This document shows positions 20,434 through 29,351 of a DNA stretch of 64,000 nucleotides, piece by piece. Positions within the stretch are counted from its first letter, which is position 1, and every line of letters begins with the position of its first letter. The stretch lies in the NCBI RefSeq assembly GCF_000376105.1, contig NZ_AQWM01000001.1, positions 496,001-560,000 of the forward strand, written 5' to 3'. This stretch comes from Asticcacaulis benevestitus DSM 16100 = ATCC BAA-896 (GTDB lineage Bacteria > Pseudomonadota > Alphaproteobacteria > Caulobacterales > Caulobacteraceae). Both the position numbers and the translations under genes were made by a program. The notes below the pieces were generated by a model. That model was not told the origin of the DNA, searched no databases, and saw only the letters and a list, made by a program, of their open reading frames with translations.

Positions 20434-20826
20434 ATGACGCACCAAGATACCCCCGCCCTCAAAAAACCCACCGAAGCTGAGCTGGAAATCCTGCGTGCGC
20501 TGTGGAGCAAGGGCTCTGCCACCGTACGCGATGTTTATGACGTGCTCTCCCAGGAGCGCCCAATGGGTTACACCACGGTGCTCAAGACCATGCAGATCAT
20601 GCTGGAAAAGGGCTTGGTGTCGCGTACCGAAGCCGGCAAGGCGCATATCTATGCTGCGGCCATGCGTGAAGAAGACATGCAGGGACAACTCCTGCAAGAC
20701 CTGAGTGACAAGCTGTTTTCGGGCTCGCCTGCCTTGCTGGCCATGCACGCCCTTTCCATGCAACCGGCCAGCGACGAAGAAATCCAACTGATCAAAGCGC
20801 TGATCGAGCGCAAAAGAGGTGCGTGA
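20434..20826 (+). CDS. blaI: BlaI/MecI/CopY-family repressor
   Basis: A 130-residue winged-helix repressor. PTEAELEILRALWSKGSATVRDVYDVL is the family opening, MGYTTVLKTMQIMLEKGLVSR the recognition helix and following strand, and the C-terminal helix LFSGSPALLAMHAL gives the dimerisation region with the proteolysis-sensitive linker. Start at ATG 20434; a TTG two codons upstream is open but not needed. It shares its stop with the start of the M56 sensor peptidase, the standard blaI-blaR1 arrangement. Confidence 0.9.
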   Translation: MTHQDTPALKKPTEAELEILRALWSKGSATVRDVYDVLSQERPMGYTTVLKTMQIMLEKGLVSRTEAGKAHIYAAAMREEDMQGQLLQDLSDKLFSGSPALLAMHALSMQPASDEEIQLIKALIERKRGA

Positions 20827-22700
20827 TGAGTCCCCATATGGAAGCTCTCGGTTATACCCTCGTCCATTTCTGCTGGCAGGCAGCCCTGATCGCCGCGTTC
20901 TATAAGCTGGCCGATCTGTGTCTGCCGCGATTGCGGGCGCAGGGGCGCTATATGCTCAGCCTGACGGCCCTGCTGGCGATGTTCGCCGCCGCCGTTATCA
21001 CCTTTATCTATGAAGATCTGCGCATCACCCAGGCCGCCGCGGTTGATTTCACCGGCGTGGTGATCCCGGCGCTCGGCGCACAGATCACGCAGGAGCTTAA
21101 GCTCTCCGCCCTGCTGCCCTGGCTCGATGCTTTCTGGCTGATCGGCGTCGCCACCCTCTCCTTCCGCATGTTGTCGGGCCTGTGGTACATACATAGCCTC
21201 AAGAAGCACGCGCAGCCCGTACCGGCCCAGATCGCGCACCGCTTCGCCCTCGCACTGCGTCGTTTCGGCCTGACCAACAAGGTCCGCATCCGCCTTCATC
21301 CGGCCATCAACGGCCCCTTCGTCGTCGGCGCCCTGCGCTCCGTGGTCTATCTGCCGCTATCAGCGGTCACCGCCCTGACGCCTGAACAACTCGATACGGT
21401 CCTGTCGCACGAACTGGAACATATCCGCCGCGCCGACTATGCGTGGAACCTGATCCAGAGCGCGGTTGAGATCCTGTTCTTCTATCATCCCGCCGTCTGG
21501 TGGATCGGCGCCAAACTCCGCGAACAGCGCGAACTGTGCTGTGACGACGCCGCCATCCGAAGCTGCGATGACCCGATCACCTACGCCACCGCCCTGCTCA
21601 GCCTGGAAGAACAGCGCCGCAGGGTGCCGGTTATGGCCCCGAACCTGACAATGGCGCTAAACGGTCACGGCAAGAACGATCTGCTGGCCCGCATTTCGCG
21701 CATTCTTGGTGAGAATGCCGAGCCACGCCTCAAGGCCCGTCCGGTCGCCTTCGTCCTGCTGCCATTGATGCTCCTGACCCTGACGGCGTTTGCTGCCGCC
21801 CCCGTCCGTGACGCCGCCGCCAAGATTTGCCCGCAAGCCGCGACCGACGCCCTCGCCCATCTCGAAGACGTGGTGACCGGCGCCAAGGATCTGAAGGTTC
21901 AGAGCGAGGACGCCCAGGTGGCAAGAAATGATCTCGACGTCGCCGACTACGAGCACGAAGCGCCGGAATATGCGGCCGTGGAAGCCGACGACATCGATCC
22001 GAACGCCATTGCTGCCCAGGCGCGCGCCGATGCACTCGCCGCCCGCGCTGAAATCGCCCGCGCCAAACTGACGGACATCAACCCCGAGCAGATCGCTGCC
22101 GAAGCCCGCGCGTCCGCCCTGCAGGCCAAGGCCGAAATGGAGCGTAACGGCATCAAGGATCGCATCGACGTTGAGGCCATTGTCGCCCAGGCGCGTGCCG
22201 ATGCCGAGGCTGCCAAGGCGAATGTCGCACAACTGGCCATCGCTGACATCGACCCCGACCGGATTGCCGCGGAGGCCCGCGCCGGCGCCATGCAGGCCCA
22301 GGCGCAACAACAGGCCGCCTTAAAGGCGCAGCGCGTATTCAGCAAGATCAAGGCCCCCAAAGCGCCCAAGGCCCCTAAGGCTCCGAAAGCACCCGTTGCG
22401 CCTGCTGCGGCAGCGGATATGTACCCCGATGAAGTGCCAGCCCAACTGGCCGCGCCCGAAGCCCCGCCCGCCCCTCATGCGCCGCCCATGACCTTTATGC
22501 CAGGCAATGTGAAGATTACGACGCCCCTCTCCGCCGCTATTGTGGAACCTCGCTCTGTCGCTACGCCGTCTCCCGTGGTCCGGCTCGACCGCCTGCCCCA
22601 CGCAACCGCTGTCACCATCCCCTCACCGAACGCCATGACCGATGTCGTTATCAATGTCGACCGCAAGGACACCGTGACGGTTCAAGTCGCCGTCAAGTAA
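20826..22700 (+). CDS. M56-family membrane metallopeptidase (BlaR1-like) with repetitive Ala-rich tail
   Basis: About 624 residues. Membrane helices lie near residues 10-30, 43-63 and 95-120. The zinc motif HELEH (195-199) sits in SHELEHIRRADYAWNLIQ, followed by a helix containing FFYHPAVWW and the LREQRELCCDDAA segment typical of M56. A further helix near 310-325 leads to a long exported tail. The tail has no penicillin-binding SxxK/SxN domain; instead it holds four 28-29 residue repeats and a KAP tract. On a signal it should cleave its partner BlaI. Ligand unknown. An in-frame GTG one codon upstream is also possible. Confidence 0.88.
   Translation: MSPHMEALGYTLVHFCWQAALIAAFYKLADLCLPRLRAQGRYMLSLTALLAMFAAAVITFIYEDLRITQAAAVDFTGVVIPALGAQITQELKLSALLPWLDAFWLIGVATLSFRMLSGLWYIHSLKKHAQPVPAQIAHRFALALRRFGLTNKVRIRLHPAINGPFVVGALRSVVYLPLSAVTALTPEQLDTVLSHELEHIRRADYAWNLIQSAVEILFFYHPAVWWIGAKLREQRELCCDDAAIRSCDDPITYATALLSLEEQRRRVPVMAPNLTMALNGHGKNDLLARISRILGENAEPRLKARPVAFVLLPLMLLTLTAFAAAPVRDAAAKICPQAATDALAHLEDVVTGAKDLKVQSEDAQVARNDLDVADYEHEAPEYAAVEADDIDPNAIAAQARADALAARAEIARAKLTDINPEQIAAEARASALQAKAEMERNGIKDRIDVEAIVAQARADAEAAKANVAQLAIADIDPDRIAAEARAGAMQAQAQQQAALKAQRVFSKIKAPKAPKAPKAPKAPVAPAAAADMYPDEVPAQLAAPEAPPAPHAPPMTFMPGNVKITTPLSAAIVEPRSVATPSPVVRLDRLPHATAVTIPSPNAMTDVVINVDRKDTVTVQVAVK
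21990..22394 (+). repeat. Four in-frame 84-87 bp repeats plus KAP tract in the M56 peptidase tail
   Basis: Repeat units start at 21990, 22074, 22161 and 22245, i.e. 28, 29 and 28 codons apart. Each reads roughly D-I-D-P-x-x-I-A-A-x-A-R-A-x-A-x-x-A-x-A-x. They are followed at 22350-22394 by five consecutive KAP triplets. A 28-residue period equals four heptads, so the units probably form a long Ala-rich helix in the periplasm, and the KAP run a Lys/Pro-rich wall-contact segment. The function is inference. Confidence 0.8.
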
Positions 22701-22876: not shown

Positions 22877-24424
22877 ATGAAGCGCGCGTTTAAGGCCAGC
22901 GATACGACCACGTCGCTGTTTGATGCACTGATCGAAGCGCAAGGCCGTTTCGGGGCCAATAAGATCATTATCGAAGATCAGGACAGGAAGCCGCTGTCCT
23001 ACGGCATGTTCATTGCGGGCGTGTTCGCCCTGTCGCGCCTGCTTAACCGCCATGTCGGCGATGAGGGCCGCGTCGGCATGATGTTGCCGACCTCAGCCGG
23101 CGGCGCCGTTTCCTTCTTCGCCCTGCACGCGCTGGGCAAGGTGCCGGTGATGATCAATTTCACCGCCGGTCAGGCCAATGTCAGAGCCGCCGCCCAGACC
23201 GCGCAGATCAAAAGCGTGCTGACCTCACGCCGCTTTATTGAAAACGCCAAGCTGGAAGATCTGGTCGAGGCCATGTCGGCCTATGTACGCATCATCTATC
23301 TCGATGATATCCGCAAGGAAATCTCGACGACGGACAAGCTCTATGCGCTGGCCGCCTCGAAGTTGCCGAGGCTCTTCGCCAAAAAGACGAAGGCCTCCGA
23401 TATCGGCGTCATCCTCTTCACCTCCGGCAGCTTCGGCAGCCCGCGCGGCGTGGTCCTGATGCAATCGAACCTGGTCTCCAACACCCGCCAGATCGAAGCC
23501 CATATCGAGCTGAAACCGGAATGGATCGCCTTCAACCCGATGCCGATTTTCCATTCTTTGGGGCTCACGGGCGGCGTCATCCTGCCCCTGCTGGCAGGTC
23601 TGCGCAGCTTCCAGTACCCGTCGCCTCTACACGTAAAAGTAATCCCTGGCCTGCTGAAAGAAACGAAGGCGTCGCTGCTGTTCTCGACCGATACCTTCAT
23701 CAATCAGTACGCCCGCTCCGGTGAGCCCGAAGATTTCAGGACGCTCGAATTCGTCGTTTGCGGCGCTGAAAAGGTCCGCGAAGAGACACACAATCTGTTC
23801 AGTGGCACCCCCATTCTGGAAGGCTACGGCGTCACCGAATGTTCGCCCGTGGTAGCCGTCAACTTCCCTGACAACAACCACCACGGCACGGTCGGCGCCA
23901 TGCTGCCCGAAATGGAAGCGCGGCTGGAACCGGTCGAAGGCATCCCGGTCGGCGGCCGTCTCTGGGTCAGGGGACCGAACGTCATGGGCGGCTATATCAA
24001 CAGCGACGCCCCCGATGTCATTGAGGCGCCGAAGGACGGCTGGCACGACACTGGCGACATCGTTGATATCGATGGCGAAGGCTTCATCAAGATCCTCGGC
24101 CGCGCCAAACGCTTCGCCAAGATCGCCGGCGAGATGGTGTCGCTGACCGCGGTGGAGCGCATCGCCGAAGAAGTGTGGCCCGATAATCGCCATGCCGTCG
24201 TCGCCGTTTCGGACGACAAAAAAGGCGAGCGCCTCGTGCTGATCACCGACAAGGACGACGCCGACGTATCGCGTCTCACACTGTGGGCGAAGGAAAACGG
24301 CGCGCCCGTTCTGGCCATCCCGAAGAAGATTCTGAAGGTCGAGGTCGTGCCGGTGCTGGGCTCTGGCAAGACGGATTACGTCACCTTGCAGAAACTCGCC
24401 GACGTCGAAACGCGCGCCGCTTAA
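22877..24424 (+). CDS. AMP-binding acyl-CoA/acyl-ACP synthetase-like protein
   Basis: A 515-residue ANL-superfamily ligase, closest in feel to the C-terminal synthetase domain of Aas (acyl-ACP synthetase of lysophospholipid repair). The A3 phosphate loop is LFTSGSFGSPRGV (about 180-192), with Phe and Arg where Glu and Lys are usual. Later motifs are EGYGVTECSPVV, the DTGDIVDIDGEGFIKILGR hinge, and a C-terminal lysine in LGSGKTDY. The acyltransferase half of Aas is not present. It starts at ATG 22877 after 176 bases without a gene. Substrate not deducible. Confidence 0.8.
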   Translation: MKRAFKASDTTTSLFDALIEAQGRFGANKIIIEDQDRKPLSYGMFIAGVFALSRLLNRHVGDEGRVGMMLPTSAGGAVSFFALHALGKVPVMINFTAGQANVRAAAQTAQIKSVLTSRRFIENAKLEDLVEAMSAYVRIIYLDDIRKEISTTDKLYALAASKLPRLFAKKTKASDIGVILFTSGSFGSPRGVVLMQSNLVSNTRQIEAHIELKPEWIAFNPMPIFHSLGLTGGVILPLLAGLRSFQYPSPLHVKVIPGLLKETKASLLFSTDTFINQYARSGEPEDFRTLEFVVCGAEKVREETHNLFSGTPILEGYGVTECSPVVAVNFPDNNHHGTVGAMLPEMEARLEPVEGIPVGGRLWVRGPNVMGGYINSDAPDVIEAPKDGWHDTGDIVDIDGEGFIKILGRAKRFAKIAGEMVSLTAVERIAEEVWPDNRHAVVAVSDDKKGERLVLITDKDDADVSRLTLWAKENGAPVLAIPKKILKVEVVPVLGSGKTDYVTLQKLADVETRAA

Positions 24425-24484
24425 AGTTCAAATTTTGCCAAACACTTCACGCAATTAGGAAGGTATTTGACGGCGATATAATAT

Positions 24485-24522
24485 TTAATTATATAGTTAA
24501 TTATTGCGCCTTTCGTTAATTA
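24485..24522. repeat. Three TTAATTA repeats in an AT-rich control region
   Basis: TTAATTA occurs at 24485-24491, 24497-24503 and 24516-24522 within a strikingly AT-rich gap (24425-24607) between the ligase and the ArsR-type regulator. Each unit is nearly self-complementary. They could be regulator or global-protein (e.g. nucleoid or GcrA/CtrA class) binding sites. No clear -35/-10 pair could be fixed. The rest of the gap shows nothing else recognisable. Confidence 0.4.
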
Positions 24523-24607
24523 TGTGATTTTGAGAACTCTAAAGGCGTATATTTATCAATACCTTAAATGATTCCTAAAAATGAGAAATTAAAATCTGGA
24601 CGATATC

Positions 24608-24934
24608 GTGAACGAAATCCTCGAACAGACCCTGGCGGCGCTTGCCGATCCCAACCGTCGACGGGTGATCGAATTGCTGTGTGACCAGCCCTATACAGCC
24701 GGCGAACTTGCGCGTGAAATCGGCCTCTCTCCGGCCGCGCTCAGCCGCCATCTGCGCGTGTTGAAATCTATCGGCATGATCGCCGAAGTGCCGCTTTACA
24801 GCGATGCCCGCCTGCGCGCCTATGCTCTGCGGCCACAGCCGATGGCCGACCTCAAAACCTGGGTCACAAACAATGAAGAGCGATGGACGCGTCAGATGGA
24901 GACCCTGGCACGCCGCGCCACATCCGGGTCATAA
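24608..24934 (+). CDS. ArsR-family helix-turn-helix regulator
   Basis: A 108-residue protein with GTG start. LAALADPNRRRVIELLCDQPYTAGELAREIGLSPAALSRHLRVLKSIGMI is a textbook ArsR winged helix; the wing carries SDARLRAYAL. The ELxCxC metal motif of true metal sensors is missing (only ELLCDQ), which is common in the PadR/SRPBCC-linked branch. It is 43 bases upstream of the Cys-rich exported protein and probably controls this unit. Confidence 0.85.
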   Translation: MNEILEQTLAALADPNRRRVIELLCDQPYTAGELAREIGLSPAALSRHLRVLKSIGMIAEVPLYSDARLRAYALRPQPMADLKTWVTNNEERWTRQMETLARRATSGS

Positions 24935-24977
24935 CGGTGTCTTGACAGTCACAACCATTCTGTCATTAGACAATACT

Positions 24978-25397
24978 ATGGCCAAGGCAGATTCCATCTT
25001 AAGGACGCCACGCAACTCGGAAGTCAACTTCTGGGCCTGCTTCGCCGTGGTCTTTGCCCTGGTCTCTCAGGTGCTGTTTCCACCGCAGGTCATGGCCATG
25101 CCCTCGAGCCATGGCGTCAAGATGGTGCTGTGTTCGGCGGGTATGGATAGCCAGCCGATCGTCGAGACCACGACGCTCATCCTCAAGTCCGCGCCGAAAA
25201 AGCCCGGCCTCGCCGGCCTGAAATGCGCCCAGTGCGTTCTGGCTTCGGTGACCGGCATCACCACGCCGGAGCCGGTCTTCCAGCCGGCCATCTATACCGT
25301 CTGCCACGCCGATTTTACACCGGCCACCCGCCGCTCTCCGATCAAGGCGCGCGCACCGCCGCGTCCGCATTCCTGCGGCCCTCCGTCCCAGATCTAA
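24978..25397 (+). CDS. Exported Cys-rich DUF2946-like protein
   Basis: A 139-residue protein begun at ATG 24978. A signal or anchor helix covers about 17-41, ending MAMPSS. The exported part has paired thiols: LCSAGMDS, then LKCAQCVLA, a single CHADF and a terminal HSCGPPS. The order CSAG...CxxC...PP at the end resembles DUF2946, a periplasmic family often encoded next to copper receptor OprC-type genes. Overlapping upstream frame discarded as it runs through the ArsR gene. Metal binding is inference from Cys spacing and neighbours. Confidence 0.65.
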   Translation: MAKADSILRTPRNSEVNFWACFAVVFALVSQVLFPPQVMAMPSSHGVKMVLCSAGMDSQPIVETTTLILKSAPKKPGLAGLKCAQCVLASVTGITTPEPVFQPAIYTVCHADFTPATRRSPIKARAPPRPHSCGPPSQI

Positions 25398-25465
25398 GCT
25401 GATAACCCCGCGCAAACGGCATGACCGTCTGCGCTATTTCTGCTTATCTGAACGGATCTTTGAAA

Positions 25466-27736
25466 ATGAAGAACACAACCTGCGCGCTTGTTGCCGCGCT
25501 GCTCTGCACGGCCTCCACCCTTCCCTTTATTGCCCATGCTGAAACTTTAGCTGAAACGCCGGAGGCTTCCGACGCGCCAAAAGAGGTGATCGTCGTCGGA
25601 CAAAAAAACACCCCGATCACCGTCGTGCCGCGCGGTCTTTCGGTCTCGCTCGGCCATGATCAGTTCGACGCGATCAACGCCGTCAATGTCGAAGACCTGA
25701 TGAAGTACGCGCCGAATTTTTACGTGCGTAAACGCTTCGTCGGCGATGATAATGCCGTAGTCGCCCTGCGCGGCGCCAACACCGTCCAGAGCGCCCGCAC
25801 GCTTGTTCTGGTCGATGGCTATGTCGTCTCGAACTTCCTCGGCAACCGCTACGACTATGCCCCCAAATGGAACGTCGTCGGGCCCGCCGAGGTGCGCCAG
25901 TTCGATATCGTCTATGGCCCCTATTCGGCACGCTACGGCGGCAATTCGATGGGCGGTGTCGTCTCGATCACTACGGAAGCGCCGAAAAAGAATGATATGT
26001 ACGGCTCCGTTCAGGCCTTCACCATGCCGTTCAAGGAATACGGCTTCGATGAGAGCCTCAGTGGCTATTCGGTCGAAGGCGGCCTGAATTACAAGGCCAA
26101 GGAGTCAGGCTGGTCGGCACGTGCTTCGTTCCGCCATTTCGAGAACACCGGCCAGTCGATGACCTATAATCTGCTGACCAAGTCGTCAGCCTCTGGCACC
26201 TATACGCCGGTCACCGGTGCCTATGTCGATGATCGTCTGGCCACCCCGGTCTTCGGCACCGCTTCGCCGGTCGATGTCGTCCAGGATCAGGCGCGCCTGC
26301 GCGTTGGCTATGCTTGGGATAATGGCTGGAAGGCCGACGCCCTCATCATGCTGTGGCAGACCGCGCAGGATCTGAACGATCCGCGCTCATGGCTTGTCGA
26401 TGCCAGCGGCAATACCGTCCTGCCGACCACAGCCGGCACCAAGGTCCGTTTTAATGGCGTCAACTACACGGCCAAGGGCGTGACCTATTCGACCATGGAC
26501 CGTACCGAAAGCCTGATGGGCCTGCGCCTGTCCGGCAACTGGCAGGGCTGGGACATCACCGGCAATCTGTCGCATTACGATATCGGCAAGTGGGACAACC
26601 GCACCTCGCTCGATATGGTCAACACGGCCGGCCAGCAGACGCTCTACGATCACCCGGGCTGGTGGACCTTCGACGGCACTCTTGAACAGGCCTTCGGACG
26701 TCATGCCCTCGCCTTTGGTGTTAGCGCCAACCAGTATGAGACCAGCGCCACGACCTGGAACACAAAACAATGGCGCACAGCCGCCAACCCTAGCCTGGCC
26801 TCGCAGGTTTTCGGCAAGACGGCGATCGCCGGCGTCTTCGCCGAGGATGAGATAGACCTCGGCCGCGCCGTCCTGACGCTGGGCGCACGCTTCGATGACT
26901 GGCGCGCCTTCGATGGCGGAACAACCACCGGCACCATAACGCGCGCTTACGCCAAGCGTCACGACACCGCTTTTTCGCCCAAGGCCAGCCTGCAGGGCGA
27001 TATCGGCGCCTATAATCTGCAACTGAGCCTAGGGACGGCCACACGCTTCCCCACGGTCGGCGAGCTGTTCCAGGGCAAGATCAATGCCGGCCAGACGGAG
27101 ATCGACCCCACCAGTTTCGATCCGAACCTCAAGCCGGAGATCTCGCACGATATCAGCCTGATCGCGCGGCGACGCTTTGACCGCATCACCCTGACCGCCA
27201 GCCTGTTCGACCAGTCGATCGATGATGCTGTCTATAGCTATCAGGGCCTGCTGGAGGATGGCACAGTCGTCAACCGCTATCAGAATATCGAGCGCATGAA
27301 CCAGTCCGGCGTCGAACTGATCTTCGAGTCGCACGATCTGCTGCTCGAAGGCCTGACGGTGGAATCGAGCGTGTCGTGGATGGACGCCCGCACGGAGACA
27401 AACACGTCGGCGCCGACAGCCGAAGGCGTGCAGTTTCCGCGGATTCCGAAATGGCGCAGCAATGGCAATCTGCGTTATGCCTTTACGCCGAAGCTGAAAG
27501 CCTCGCTCGGCTGGCGGTATGGCTCACGGCCTAATTCCGACCTGTTCGGTCTGGTGCGTGGCGATGCCTATGGCTTCCAGACGGAATACTTTTTCCTCGA
27601 CACGCGCATCAGCTATGATCTGACCAAGGCGACGCAAATCAGCCTCGGCATTGATAATCTCAATAATGATCAGGCCTATGTGTCACACCCCATGCCCCAG
27701 CGCAGCTTCATGCTCGAAATCAAGTATCGGAACTAG
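25466..27736 (+). CDS. TonB-dependent outer-membrane receptor
   Basis: A 756-residue receptor with signal peptide ending at about AHAETLAE. The TonB box region reads KEVIVVGQK; the plug domain has VNVEDLMKYAPNF, VALRGANT, VLVDGYVVS and the Arg-Tyr-Gly-Gly-NSMGGVVSI signature; a 22-strand barrel with many aromatic-rich strands follows. It ends in EIKYRN rather than in a terminal Phe. Start at 25466 (MKNTT) is chosen for the signal peptide. Sandwiched between a Cys-rich exported protein and a PepSY reductase, it likely imports a metal or metallophore. Confidence 0.92.
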   Translation: MKNTTCALVAALLCTASTLPFIAHAETLAETPEASDAPKEVIVVGQKNTPITVVPRGLSVSLGHDQFDAINAVNVEDLMKYAPNFYVRKRFVGDDNAVVALRGANTVQSARTLVLVDGYVVSNFLGNRYDYAPKWNVVGPAEVRQFDIVYGPYSARYGGNSMGGVVSITTEAPKKNDMYGSVQAFTMPFKEYGFDESLSGYSVEGGLNYKAKESGWSARASFRHFENTGQSMTYNLLTKSSASGTYTPVTGAYVDDRLATPVFGTASPVDVVQDQARLRVGYAWDNGWKADALIMLWQTAQDLNDPRSWLVDASGNTVLPTTAGTKVRFNGVNYTAKGVTYSTMDRTESLMGLRLSGNWQGWDITGNLSHYDIGKWDNRTSLDMVNTAGQQTLYDHPGWWTFDGTLEQAFGRHALAFGVSANQYETSATTWNTKQWRTAANPSLASQVFGKTAIAGVFAEDEIDLGRAVLTLGARFDDWRAFDGGTTTGTITRAYAKRHDTAFSPKASLQGDIGAYNLQLSLGTATRFPTVGELFQGKINAGQTEIDPTSFDPNLKPEISHDISLIARRRFDRITLTASLFDQSIDDAVYSYQGLLEDGTVVNRYQNIERMNQSGVELIFESHDLLLEGLTVESSVSWMDARTETNTSAPTAEGVQFPRIPKWRSNGNLRYAFTPKLKASLGWRYGSRPNSDLFGLVRGDAYGFQTEYFFLDTRISYDLTKATQISLGIDNLNNDQAYVSHPMPQRSFMLEIKYRN

Positions 27737-27739
27737 ACC

Positions 27740-29083
27740 ATGAAACATCAGGCCGGCACGATCAAAGACGCCGCACGAAAGATCATCGATTACCGCATGT
27801 TCTGGCGCTGGCATTTCTATGCCGGCCTGGTATGCCTTCCCTTTATCATTATCCTGTCGATCACAGGCCCGATCTACCTCTTTAAGCCGCAGATAGAAGC
27901 CTTCATTGACGCCAGATACGATCACCTGGCCTTTAGCGGCGCGCCGCAATCGGCCGAGGCGATGGTGAAGGCCGCCACGGCGGCCGTGCCCGGCTCGCGC
28001 TTCAAGACCATTGAGGTACGGCCCGATACGCACGACGCCGCGCGCATCACGGTGGTGAAGAACAACGAGAAAATCCGCCTCTATATCCATCCGCAAAACC
28101 TGAGGATACTGAAACAAGTCCCTGAAGAGGCGCGCTTTATGGAGGTCGTCAAGACTATCCACGGCGAGCTATTCGCCGGCCGTTTCGGCGAGGTCATCGT
28201 CGAACTGGCCGCCTGCTGGGCCATCGTGATGATCCTGACCGGGCTTTATCTGTGGTGGCCCCGAAACCCAAAAAGCGAAGCCAAAGGCATCGCCGGCCTG
28301 CTCTATCCGCGCCTTGATATGGGCAAGCGCATCTTCTGGCGCGATATCCATGCGGTGACCGGACTCTATATTTCCGCCCTGGCGCTGTTCCTGCTGCTGA
28401 CCGGCCTGCCCTGGACCATCGTCTGGGGCAACGCCTTCAAGTCGGTCCGCGCCATGGCCAGTCCGGCGCCGGTATCGCAGAGCTGGAGCCAGGGTCGCGC
28501 CGAGGAAAAGACGGCCCTGAAAGCTGAAGGCGTGGCAAAGACCGATCTCAGCCGCCTCGATGCCCTGCTCGATACGTCACGCGCGCTCGACCTGCCCGCG
28601 CCGGTCACACTGGCGGCGCCTGCCAAGGGCGCAACGCTTTGGAAACTGCAATCCGACACCGGCAACCGTCCGCAGCGCGTCACCCTGATGATCGACCCAA
28701 TGATGCTGGAGGTGATCAGCCGTGAGGATTTCCATGACAAGAAAGCGCTCGATCAGGTGGTTGGTTACGGTATCGCCGCGCATGAAGGGCAGTTGTTCGG
28801 GCCGATTAATCAGGCCTTGGGCGTTCTCACAGCGCTGGGACTGATGACCCTGTGCATAAGCGCCGTCGTCATGTGGTGGCAGCGCCGGCCGTCTGACACG
28901 CTTGGCGCCCCGCAAATCCTGCCCGATGAACGTCTGGCGCCAGGCTTGGCCCTTATCATCATTGTGCTGGGCATTTTCCTGCCGGTACTGGGCATCAGCC
29001 TGATCGCTATTGGCTTGATCGAGTGGCTTGTGCTGCGCCGTATCCCGCGCGTTCGTGACTGGCTGGGCCTGAAAAAGGCGTAG
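27740..29083 (+). CDS. PepSY-associated transmembrane protein (PiuB/ferric reductase-like)
   Basis: A 447-residue inner-membrane protein, three bases downstream of the receptor. Helices: near 22-46 (FYAGLVCLPFIIILSITGPIYLF in pieces), 158-180 (ending LTGLYLWWPR), 210-235, and three near the C-terminus. Conserved histidine/aromatic positions, WRWHFYAGL, KTIHGELFAG, DIHAVTGLY and AHEGQLFG, match PepSY_TM proteins that are thought to reduce siderophore-bound iron or handle other metals after TonB uptake. The closing of a three-gene uptake unit. Confidence 0.9.
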   Translation: MKHQAGTIKDAARKIIDYRMFWRWHFYAGLVCLPFIIILSITGPIYLFKPQIEAFIDARYDHLAFSGAPQSAEAMVKAATAAVPGSRFKTIEVRPDTHDAARITVVKNNEKIRLYIHPQNLRILKQVPEEARFMEVVKTIHGELFAGRFGEVIVELAACWAIVMILTGLYLWWPRNPKSEAKGIAGLLYPRLDMGKRIFWRDIHAVTGLYISALALFLLLTGLPWTIVWGNAFKSVRAMASPAPVSQSWSQGRAEEKTALKAEGVAKTDLSRLDALLDTSRALDLPAPVTLAAPAKGATLWKLQSDTGNRPQRVTLMIDPMMLEVISREDFHDKKALDQVVGYGIAAHEGQLFGPINQALGVLTALGLMTLCISAVVMWWQRRPSDTLGAPQILPDERLAPGLALIIIVLGIFLPVLGISLIAIGLIEWLVLRRIPRVRDWLGLKKA

Positions 29084-29086
29084 CGC

Positions 29087-29257
29087 CTATGTCTTGTCCT
29101 TGCTTTTCGATTGCCTTGACTCGCTAAGGGCAATGGCTACCGCTTGTTTGCGACTCTTCACCTTGTCCCCATGGCTGCTTTTCAGGTCGCCTTCCTTATG
29201 GGCGTGCATAACGCGCTCGACCGTATCGTCTTTGCTTTCGCCGGATTTGGGCATCAT
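29087..29257 (-). CDS. DUF6496-type small basic protein
   Basis: A 56-residue, Lys/Ser-rich soluble protein with the pattern MPKSGESKDDTVERVMHAHKEG, then KSRKQAVAIALSESR. This KxxKQAxAIAxSExR helix is typical of the DUF6496 family of short proteins of unknown role. Start at 29257 chosen because GGGAGA lies at a good distance. Convergent with the PepSY gene, four bases between stops. Confidence 0.75.
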   Translation of the reverse strand: MMPKSGESKDDTVERVMHAHKEGDLKSSHGDKVKSRKQAVAIALSESRQSKSKDKT

Positions 29258-29351
29258 GCATCTCCCTTTTCGCCCCACAAAAAGAGTGTGACCTGACAGA
29301 GAAAATTTCTATACGTAAGGCTAGGCTTGGGGCTTCAGGGGTGAGTCGGAC

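Follow-up and report, generated by a model that had tools for sequence, protein, structure and literature searches.

The best-studied relative of the locus described here is the operon of Bordetella pertussis that is headed by cruR, continues with a TonB-receptor gene (bfrG or crtA), and has as its third gene crpH (BP2921), which codes for a PepSY_TM protein (PMC13038864). The nascent CruR chain has been proposed to sense copper via a CxxC motif and to arrest the ribosome via an RAPP motif, for which a spacing of 45 residues from CxxC was reported; the role of CxxC in copper control was demonstrated in that organism, and copper causes Rho-dependent termination before the receptor gene (PMC9426467). 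RAPP-dependent arrest of CruR was shown in vitro (PMC12992588), and import of chelated Cu(II) has been reported for CrtA (PMC12914433). A second relative, CutF of Rhodobacter capsulatus, controls a multicopper oxidase, with the opposite copper sign, through a stem shielding the Shine-Dalgarno sequence; the same paper raised the unfolding of downstream stems by other leaders and examined intergenic lengths and signal sequences (PMC9973294). Here, we analyze a locus in a 64,000-nucleotide (nt) stretch of Asticcacaulis benevestitus DSM 16100 (NZ_AQWM01000001.1, positions 496,001 to 560,000; hereafter, the window), in which a leader open reading frame (ORF) of this kind precedes a TonB-dependent receptor and a PepSY_TM protein. 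We interpret the locus, with a probability of about 0.7, as a copper-responsive translational switch heading a copper-uptake operon, i.e., a CruR-like leader working with a CutF-like RNA output. Three features are new: base pairing between the 3' end of the leader ORF and the region around the receptor start, through which the last leader codons appear to lock that start; a tandem Pro-Pro motif in the leader tail; and a TTGAC box at a nearly fixed distance before the leader ATG.

Leaders of the general RAPP/RGPP kind before receptors are not in themselves new, since a 2025 survey in EMBO J describes them before TonB-related genes throughout Gram-negative bacteria (PMC12992588), and Caulobacterales are mentioned among the Sec-related ApdP leaders (PMC10987492). 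In a 2014 study of Zur in Caulobacter crescentus, the changes seen in a zur mutant include DUF2946, TonB-receptor and PepSY genes, to which the portion available assigns no leader role (PMC4176598). At the level of titles and abstract starts, our literature search returned no such leader in Asticcacaulis or Caulobacter, no tandem Pro-Pro motif, and no family-wide start-shielding stem.

The four co-directional genes named in the initial annotation are present in the window, all on the plus strand: an ArsR-family winged helix-turn-helix regulator (24608-24934; 108 amino acids [aa], GTG start), the CruR/CutF-like leader ORF (24978-25397; 139 aa, with a hydrophobic N-terminus and a mature part containing Cys), a TonB-dependent receptor (25466-27736; 756 aa, termed type A below), and the PepSY_TM protein (27740-29083; 447 aa). 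The gaps between them are 43 nt (arsR-leader), 68 nt (leader-receptor) and 3 nt (receptor-PepSY). We preferred the leader start at 24978 over the listed one at 24804, from which the ORF overlaps arsR, because the shorter leader is the conserved one; likewise, the receptor probably starts at ATG 25466 rather than at the listed 25421, because the signal-peptide-like sequence MKNTTCALVAALL begins there. A genome survey separated the two halves of the proposed four-gene linkage. Counting the source genome, a leader homologue was found in 25/25 Asticcacaulis genomes (26 leaders, as genome G024 carries two), and at the main locus the leader is followed directly 3' by a TonB receptor in all 25 and then by a PepSY_TM gene in 24; just 4 of the 25 have ArsR there, as do 0/40 leader loci of other Caulobacteraceae, so the linkage holds for the last three genes and the ArsR-containing unit does not stand. 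By gene order, the predicted operon is leader, TonB receptor and PepSY_TM gene, headed as in the CruR family. In a collection of named genomes, the leader had 17 relatives, every one in an Asticcacaulis record. At the 40 loci outside the genus, a receptor matching our reference set was present in 34 and a PepSY_TM match in 15.

As to sampling, the leader search of 41 genomes left 14 without a match, all of them outside the genus, and additional weak matches at E 0.001-0.01 were not carried forward; these include L056-L058, which have no leader match at E 1e-3. Outside the genus, the leader was matched in 55/174 genomes at 57 places, of which the 40 places mentioned above were examined; a downstream start could be assigned in 34 of these, and the stem test used 30 non-redundant ones. 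For the stem and promoter analyses of the genus, we chose 15 of the 26 loci as representatives. The DUF2946 loci of other Alphaproteobacteria numbered 30, of which 24 were read (five shorter than 3 kilobases and L163 were left out) and 21 entered the stem test after removal of three near copies.

The predicted pairing, termed P1, is a helix with internal loops. Its 5' strand (25382-25399, plus strand) starts at the final nt of the P135 codon and extends 2 nt past the stop codon, and its 3' strand (25440-25456, plus strand) includes ACGGA, with a Shine-Dalgarno-like GGA 9 nt before the receptor ATG. In the outer helix, UCCGU (last base of the P135 codon to first base of the S137 codon) pairs with this ACGGA, and the computed fold places an inner hairpin, P2 (25410-25434, plus strand), between the two strands. 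At the window's own locus the stretch folds at z = -4.98, with 0/200 shuffles as good; Rfam gave no match up to E 1 in 24400-25600. We compared the pairing energy of each locus's own two arms with that of arms permuted between loci, using as controls a displaced 5' arm and a 3' arm taken inside the receptor gene. In the 15 Asticcacaulis representatives, the own arms paired at a mean of -15.0 kcal/mol versus -11.1 (standard deviation [sd] 0.77) for permuted arms, with 0/20,000 permutations as good (controls, 18,787/20,000 for the displaced 5' arm and 1,759/20,000 for the 3' arm inside the receptor gene). Consistently, the 30 loci of other Caulobacteraceae gave -17.1 versus -14.6 (sd 0.5), again with 0/20,000 as good (controls, 17,754/20,000 and 19,955/20,000, respectively), and the 21 loci of other Alphaproteobacteria gave -17.6 versus -14.1 (sd 0.69; 0/20,000), a signal that persisted in the 15 of these loci with intergenic regions below 120 nt (1/20,000). 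At single loci, up to 15/25 foreign arms pair as well as the own arm; it is as a set that the own energies win. These observations suggest that P1 is under selection across Alphaproteobacteria, canonical-RAPP leaders included. Thus, prediction and permutation place here the CutF-type trait of a stem that shields the downstream start region.

The leader bears the two hallmark motifs of the CruR family, CxxC and RAPP. The CxxC codons (C83-C86; 25224-25235, plus strand), a putative copper site, are invariant in 26/26 genus leaders. The RAPP codons (residues 125-128; 25350-25361, plus strand) follow 38 residues after CxxC, are found in 21/26 genus leaders, and lie 11 residues from the C-terminus, not 3 as in the CruR family. 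Downstream of RAPP the window leader ends in RPHSCGPPSQI, so that a second Pro-Pro motif, CGPP (residues 133-136; 25374-25385, plus strand), follows 46 residues after CxxC; it is present in 26/26 genus leaders, and both CxxC and APPRP-x-SCGPP are invariant among them. A hydrophobic N-terminal stretch, a putative export signal, is visible in the aligned leaders. We did not claim formal DUF2946/CruR membership, because the Pfam gathering cut-off and the CxxC-RAPP spacing were both missed: the spacing of 38 is off the CruR-family value of ~45, which is approached by the Arg-less CGPP at 46. Taken together, the small Cys ORF is most likely a CruR/CutF-type nascent-chain leader, i.e., a cis-acting arrest peptide, rather than a metal-binding protein working independently in the periplasm.

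The tandem arrangement extends through the family. A [GA]PP lies within 7 residues of the C-terminal end in 66/66 Caulobacteraceae leaders (26 from the genus and 40 others), and the full tandem pattern, with a first motif, mostly RAPP, 8 residues upstream of x[GA]PP, occurs in 64/66 (L128 and L141 do not fit). Of these 64, 54 have RAPP as the first motif, 5 (all Asticcacaulis) have QAPP and 5 have some other variant; the second [GA]PP is preceded by C, Q, T or R in 26, 28, 9 and 1 leaders, respectively. CxxC and x[GA]PP are spaced by 46 or 47 residues in 64/66 leaders; in the leaders of other Alphaproteobacteria, R[AG]PP is found within the last 24 residues in 24/24, and CxxC-R[AG]PP spacing is 44-47 in 18/24 (those with CxxC in range). 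These spacings indicate that the second motif holds the canonical RAPP place and that the first motif appears to be the addition. Assuming a ribosome footprint of 0 to +16 nt from the first Pro codon, with the fold taken from 48 nt upstream, the P1 5' strand was partly inside the footprint of a ribosome halted at the second Pro-Pro in 47/49 loci (mean 56%, and at least half in 37), and inside the corresponding footprint at the first Pro-Pro in 1/49. P1 would therefore be blocked by a ribosome stalled at the second motif and left free by one stalled at the first.

Two further features of the tail were observed. The five leaders L047, L049, L051, L052 and L054, which form one Asticcacaulis clade, carry QAPP for RAPP and keep SCGPP, a natural loss of the arrest-linked Arg; and L133 has RAPP at both motif positions.

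When set beside the described systems, the locus resembles the CruR-CrtA(BfrG)-CrpH(BP2921) operon in its first-in-operon leader with a hydrophobic N-terminus, CxxC and C-terminal RAPP, followed by a TonB receptor and a PepSY_TM protein (PMC9426467, PMC12914433, PMC13038864). Unlike that operon, its leader-receptor intergenic region measures 68 nt and contains a start-sequestering stem, versus 162 nt in B. pertussis; RAPP is 38 rather than 45 residues after CxxC and is followed by a second Pro-Pro at the canonical place; and a TTGACA lies at -36 from the leader ATG, whereas B. pertussis transcription starts 45 base pairs (bp) before the start codon. With CutF-CutO-CutG of R. capsulatus it shares a nascent sensor that is probably exported, a Cys pair, a proline-rich tail and a stem-loop shielding the next Shine-Dalgarno sequence (PMC9973294). 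It differs from CutF in having CxxC rather than CxxxC, a TonB receptor rather than a multicopper oxidase, a predicted sign that is opposite, and a shielding strand that is the leader ORF's own end. The RAPP-type arrest peptides SecM, ApdA and ApdP are small exported proteins, as the present leader probably is, and likewise have a C-terminal R-A-P-P-like motif and lie upstream of a presumed target (PMC12992588, PMC10987492); in contrast to them, the present leader has a CxxC and two Pro-Pro motifs, the second Arg-less, and precedes a TonB receptor instead of Sec/YidC genes.

The leader has a predicted promoter of its own. TTGACA at 24942-24947 (plus strand), 36 nt before the leader ATG, is the predicted -35 element; a TTGAC box occurs 35 or 36 nt before the leader start in 23/26 genus loci (12/15 representatives; absent from L040, L053 and L055), as TTGACA in 22, against a background of 139 TTGAC and 11 TTGACA in the 128,000 window positions of both strands. 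This placement suggests that transcription may start at or near the leader ATG, i.e., that the mRNA could be leaderless. With the promoter located in the gap after arsR, the operon could be expressed without transcription of arsR. Outside the genus, a TTG(A/C/T)C box at -38 to -32 of any possible start was found in only 11/40 loci, and we therefore limit the leaderless promoter to Asticcacaulis. No inverted repeat of at least 8 was found at the leader promoter.

By homology with the systems above, from which the arrest, the copper response, its sign and the transport are taken, the locus might work as follows. RNA polymerase would start at or near the leader ATG, as the fixed -35 box implies, and the leader would be translated and targeted to the membrane; as with CruR of B. 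pertussis, the ribosome would then stall on the C-terminal Pro-Pro region. At low copper, the arrested ribosome would cover the last codons and the stop codon, i.e., the P1 5' strand, and free the receptor start; with P1 blocked, the receptor and the PepSY_TM protein would be translated. With enough copper, binding of the metal to the nascent-chain CxxC would release the arrest, the ribosome would terminate, P1 would fold and the receptor would be switched off; Rho may also end transcription after copper-induced release. By analogy with CrtA and CrpH, the receptor would import a copper complex, and the PepSY_TM protein would probably reduce the copper for heme-copper oxidases. Copper is most likely the metal, since leader, TonB receptor and PepSY_TM protein reproduce the published copper-acquisition layout cruR-bfrG(crtA)-bp2921(crpH). 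The initial annotation had proposed a metal-uptake unit with the metal left open; the uptake role is supported, and the locus moves the metal question toward copper.

Several results weigh against this interpretation. With respect to the stem, the displaced-arm control was not clean in other Alphaproteobacteria and showed some signal (141/20,000; the other control gave 4,736/20,000), and the signal was weak in the 6 loci of that set with intergenic regions of at least 120 nt (906/20,000). In absolute terms, displaced arms pair as strongly as the real ones or more so in the two wider sets (-19.4 versus -17.1 and -18.5 versus -17.6 kcal/mol), for which reason the evidence for P1 is the difference between own and permuted arms and not the energy itself. 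The window's P1 was marginal against shuffles of its 3' arm alone (16/300). In addition, a MAFFT alignment of the intergenic region places P1 in registers that differ between groups, and because of this shift arm permutation was used in place of counting pairs for column-wise covariation. With respect to the proteins, the leader scored 12.3 bits against Pfam DUF2946 (PF11162; cut-off 23.7, E 0.29, model positions 4-117/117), and the second Pro-Pro motif lacks the Arg that mutagenesis found to be needed for RAPP-type arrest (PMC12992588), as does the first motif in the five Asticcacaulis leaders with QAPP. The window receptor had no match to the copper-receptor (OprC) model TIGR01778 at E <= 1; among solved structures, those closest to it in sequence are receptors for heme, siderophores and colicin I. 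Our literature search found no copper data for Asticcacaulis. Finally, the 3' half of the leader is richer in C than in G (78-nt windows starting at 25251-25329 have C 0.44-0.45 and G 0.22-0.24).

The last of these points bears on an alternative in which the same leader senses copper and the output is Rho-dependent transcription termination, with P1 as a by-product or a translational fine-tuning. This mechanism is the one experimentally shown for B. pertussis CruR (PMC9426467), and the C excess would suit it; Pro-rich codons alone would favor C over G, though, the intergenic region here is 68 nt and not 162, and the P1 pairing looks selected in three sets, so we regard termination as the principal output as unlikely, while considering it the foremost of the competing explanations. 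The P1 pairing adds a possible explanation at the level of translation to the Rho mechanism known from B. pertussis. Less probable still is a CutF-type sign, in which copper would strengthen the arrest and turn the genes on for copper handling or detoxification rather than uptake. The RNA layout does match that of R. capsulatus cutF-cutO (PMC9973294), where a short stem between the genes covers the next start, but what follows the leader is a TonB receptor and a PepSY_TM gene, as in the copper-repressed cruR operon, and not a multicopper oxidase, and the leader has CxxC rather than CutF's CxxxC.

The initial annotation had instead described an ArsR-regulated four-gene unit, in which the signal would be a different metal or no metal at all and the Cys protein would act in the periplasm. 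arsR is co-directional and 43 nt upstream, a candidate operator precedes it, and the window receptor resembles heme and siderophore receptors. Against such a unit, ArsR is not at the locus in 21/25 genus genomes or at any of the 40 other loci, a conserved -35 box specific to the leader lies 3' of arsR, and the C-terminal Pro-Pro motifs would be left unexplained; we consider it the least probable of the explanations weighed, by a little. The copper-responsive translational switch, which draws on the gene order, the motifs, their conserved spacing and the P1 pairing by permutation that this analysis establishes, is retained as the preferred reading.

A broader proposal goes beyond this reading, and we put it forward tentatively, as an idea that we think has somewhat less than an even chance of being right. 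Alphaproteobacterial copper leaders may be one device, in which the halting codons and the stop codon double as the anti-start strand; the working half of the Caulobacteraceae tandem motif may be the Arg-less x[GA]PP, a new arrest sequence; and the locus may be a fixed chromosomal socket for exchanged TonB receptors. The tandem motif also provides a test, set up by nature, of the requirement for Arg in RAPP-type arrest.

The receptor behind the leader does vary. Type A, that of the window, was found in 7 genomes (72-97% identity among them); it shares ~31% identity with type C (1 genome) and matches types B and D (17/25 genomes) only over 156-177 residues at 24-27%, the B and D references being 73% identical to each other. 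For the one type B member searched, the only solved-structure matches at E <= 0.001 were PqqU/YncD (PDB 6v81, 9c4o); type A belongs to another subfamily, whose resemblance to heme and siderophore receptors is weak. When the types are placed on a tree of the upstream ligase, type A requires three changes, as the starred branches force: L039 (A) clusters with the type B loci L036 and L037, and L038 (A) with the type B locus L040. Three changes of receptor type on this tree indicate that the leader is more stable than the gene behind it, one leader being retained while the receptor changes. An iron or heme role for the receptor was considered and rejected, as its matches to heme/hemoglobin models were sub-threshold and too unspecific to overturn copper. 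An AlphaFold2 model of the receptor from an 8-row alignment had a mean predicted local distance difference test score (pLDDT) of 48.

The second leader locus of G024 (L055) precedes a different TonB receptor of 715 aa, which resembles TIGR01778 (124.5 bits, cut-off 472) as well as heme-receptor models, and no PepSY_TM match was found in the stretch examined there. In other Caulobacteraceae genera, L120, L126 and L136 have no reference receptor or PepSY match directly 3' of the leader.

The PepSY_TM protein matches PF03929 at 221.6 bits, and its His 25, 117, 141, 204 and 348 are invariant in 24/24 orthologues. Four of these (25, 141, 204 and 348) may correspond to the FoxB heme-ligand pattern; the match to FoxB itself has an E of 0.51. 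In G017, a lactonase-family (7-bladed propeller) protein stands in place of the PepSY_TM gene (L044, 4649-5755). Just past the window's PepSY gene, at 29090-29260 on the minus strand, lies a small ORF (MMPKSGESKDDTVERVMHAHKEGDLKSSHGDKVKSRKQAVAIALSES) below the size of the ORF list.

Judged by its occurrence, ArsR is a sporadic, accessory and lineage-specific neighbor, and it does not define the unit, given this sporadic presence and its own AT-rich upstream region (29% GC). The protein matches HTH_5 and a general NCBIfam metalloregulator model (60.9 bits, cut-off 55), with the uncharacterised ArsR proteins 3f6v and 3f6o as its best solved-structure matches. The earlier remark that it lacks the standard ELxCxC site was confirmed: a single Cys (C25) occurs in its 108 aa, with no CxC motif. 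Across the 21 Asticcacaulis genomes without arsR at the locus, no match was found anywhere at E <= 1e-15. The candidate operator is a 26-bp near-palindrome (24480-24505, no strand assigned) that may serve ArsR autoregulation; it is also present before arsR in L031, weaker in L035, and not clear in L034. Genome-wide and on both strands, the only match to its pattern with 0 or 1 mismatch was this site itself, and the other matches had 2 mismatches.

Farther upstream, an acyl-ACP-synthetase-like gene is found at the main locus in 25/25 genus genomes (split in two in L032). In the window, it is an AMP-ligase-type protein (22877-24424) that aligned only to the C-terminal half (623-1133/1140) of an acyl-ACP--phospholipid O-acyltransferase model; this ligase adjoins the leader, or arsR, on the upstream side in all 25 genomes, and no match to it was found at the 40 leader loci of other Caulobacteraceae. 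Beyond it, 20823-22700 codes for a 625-aa membrane-peptidase-like protein, which we take to be BlaR1-like, with HELEH recognized by eye and Lys/Ala/Pro repeats (APKAPKAPKAP) in its C-terminal part.

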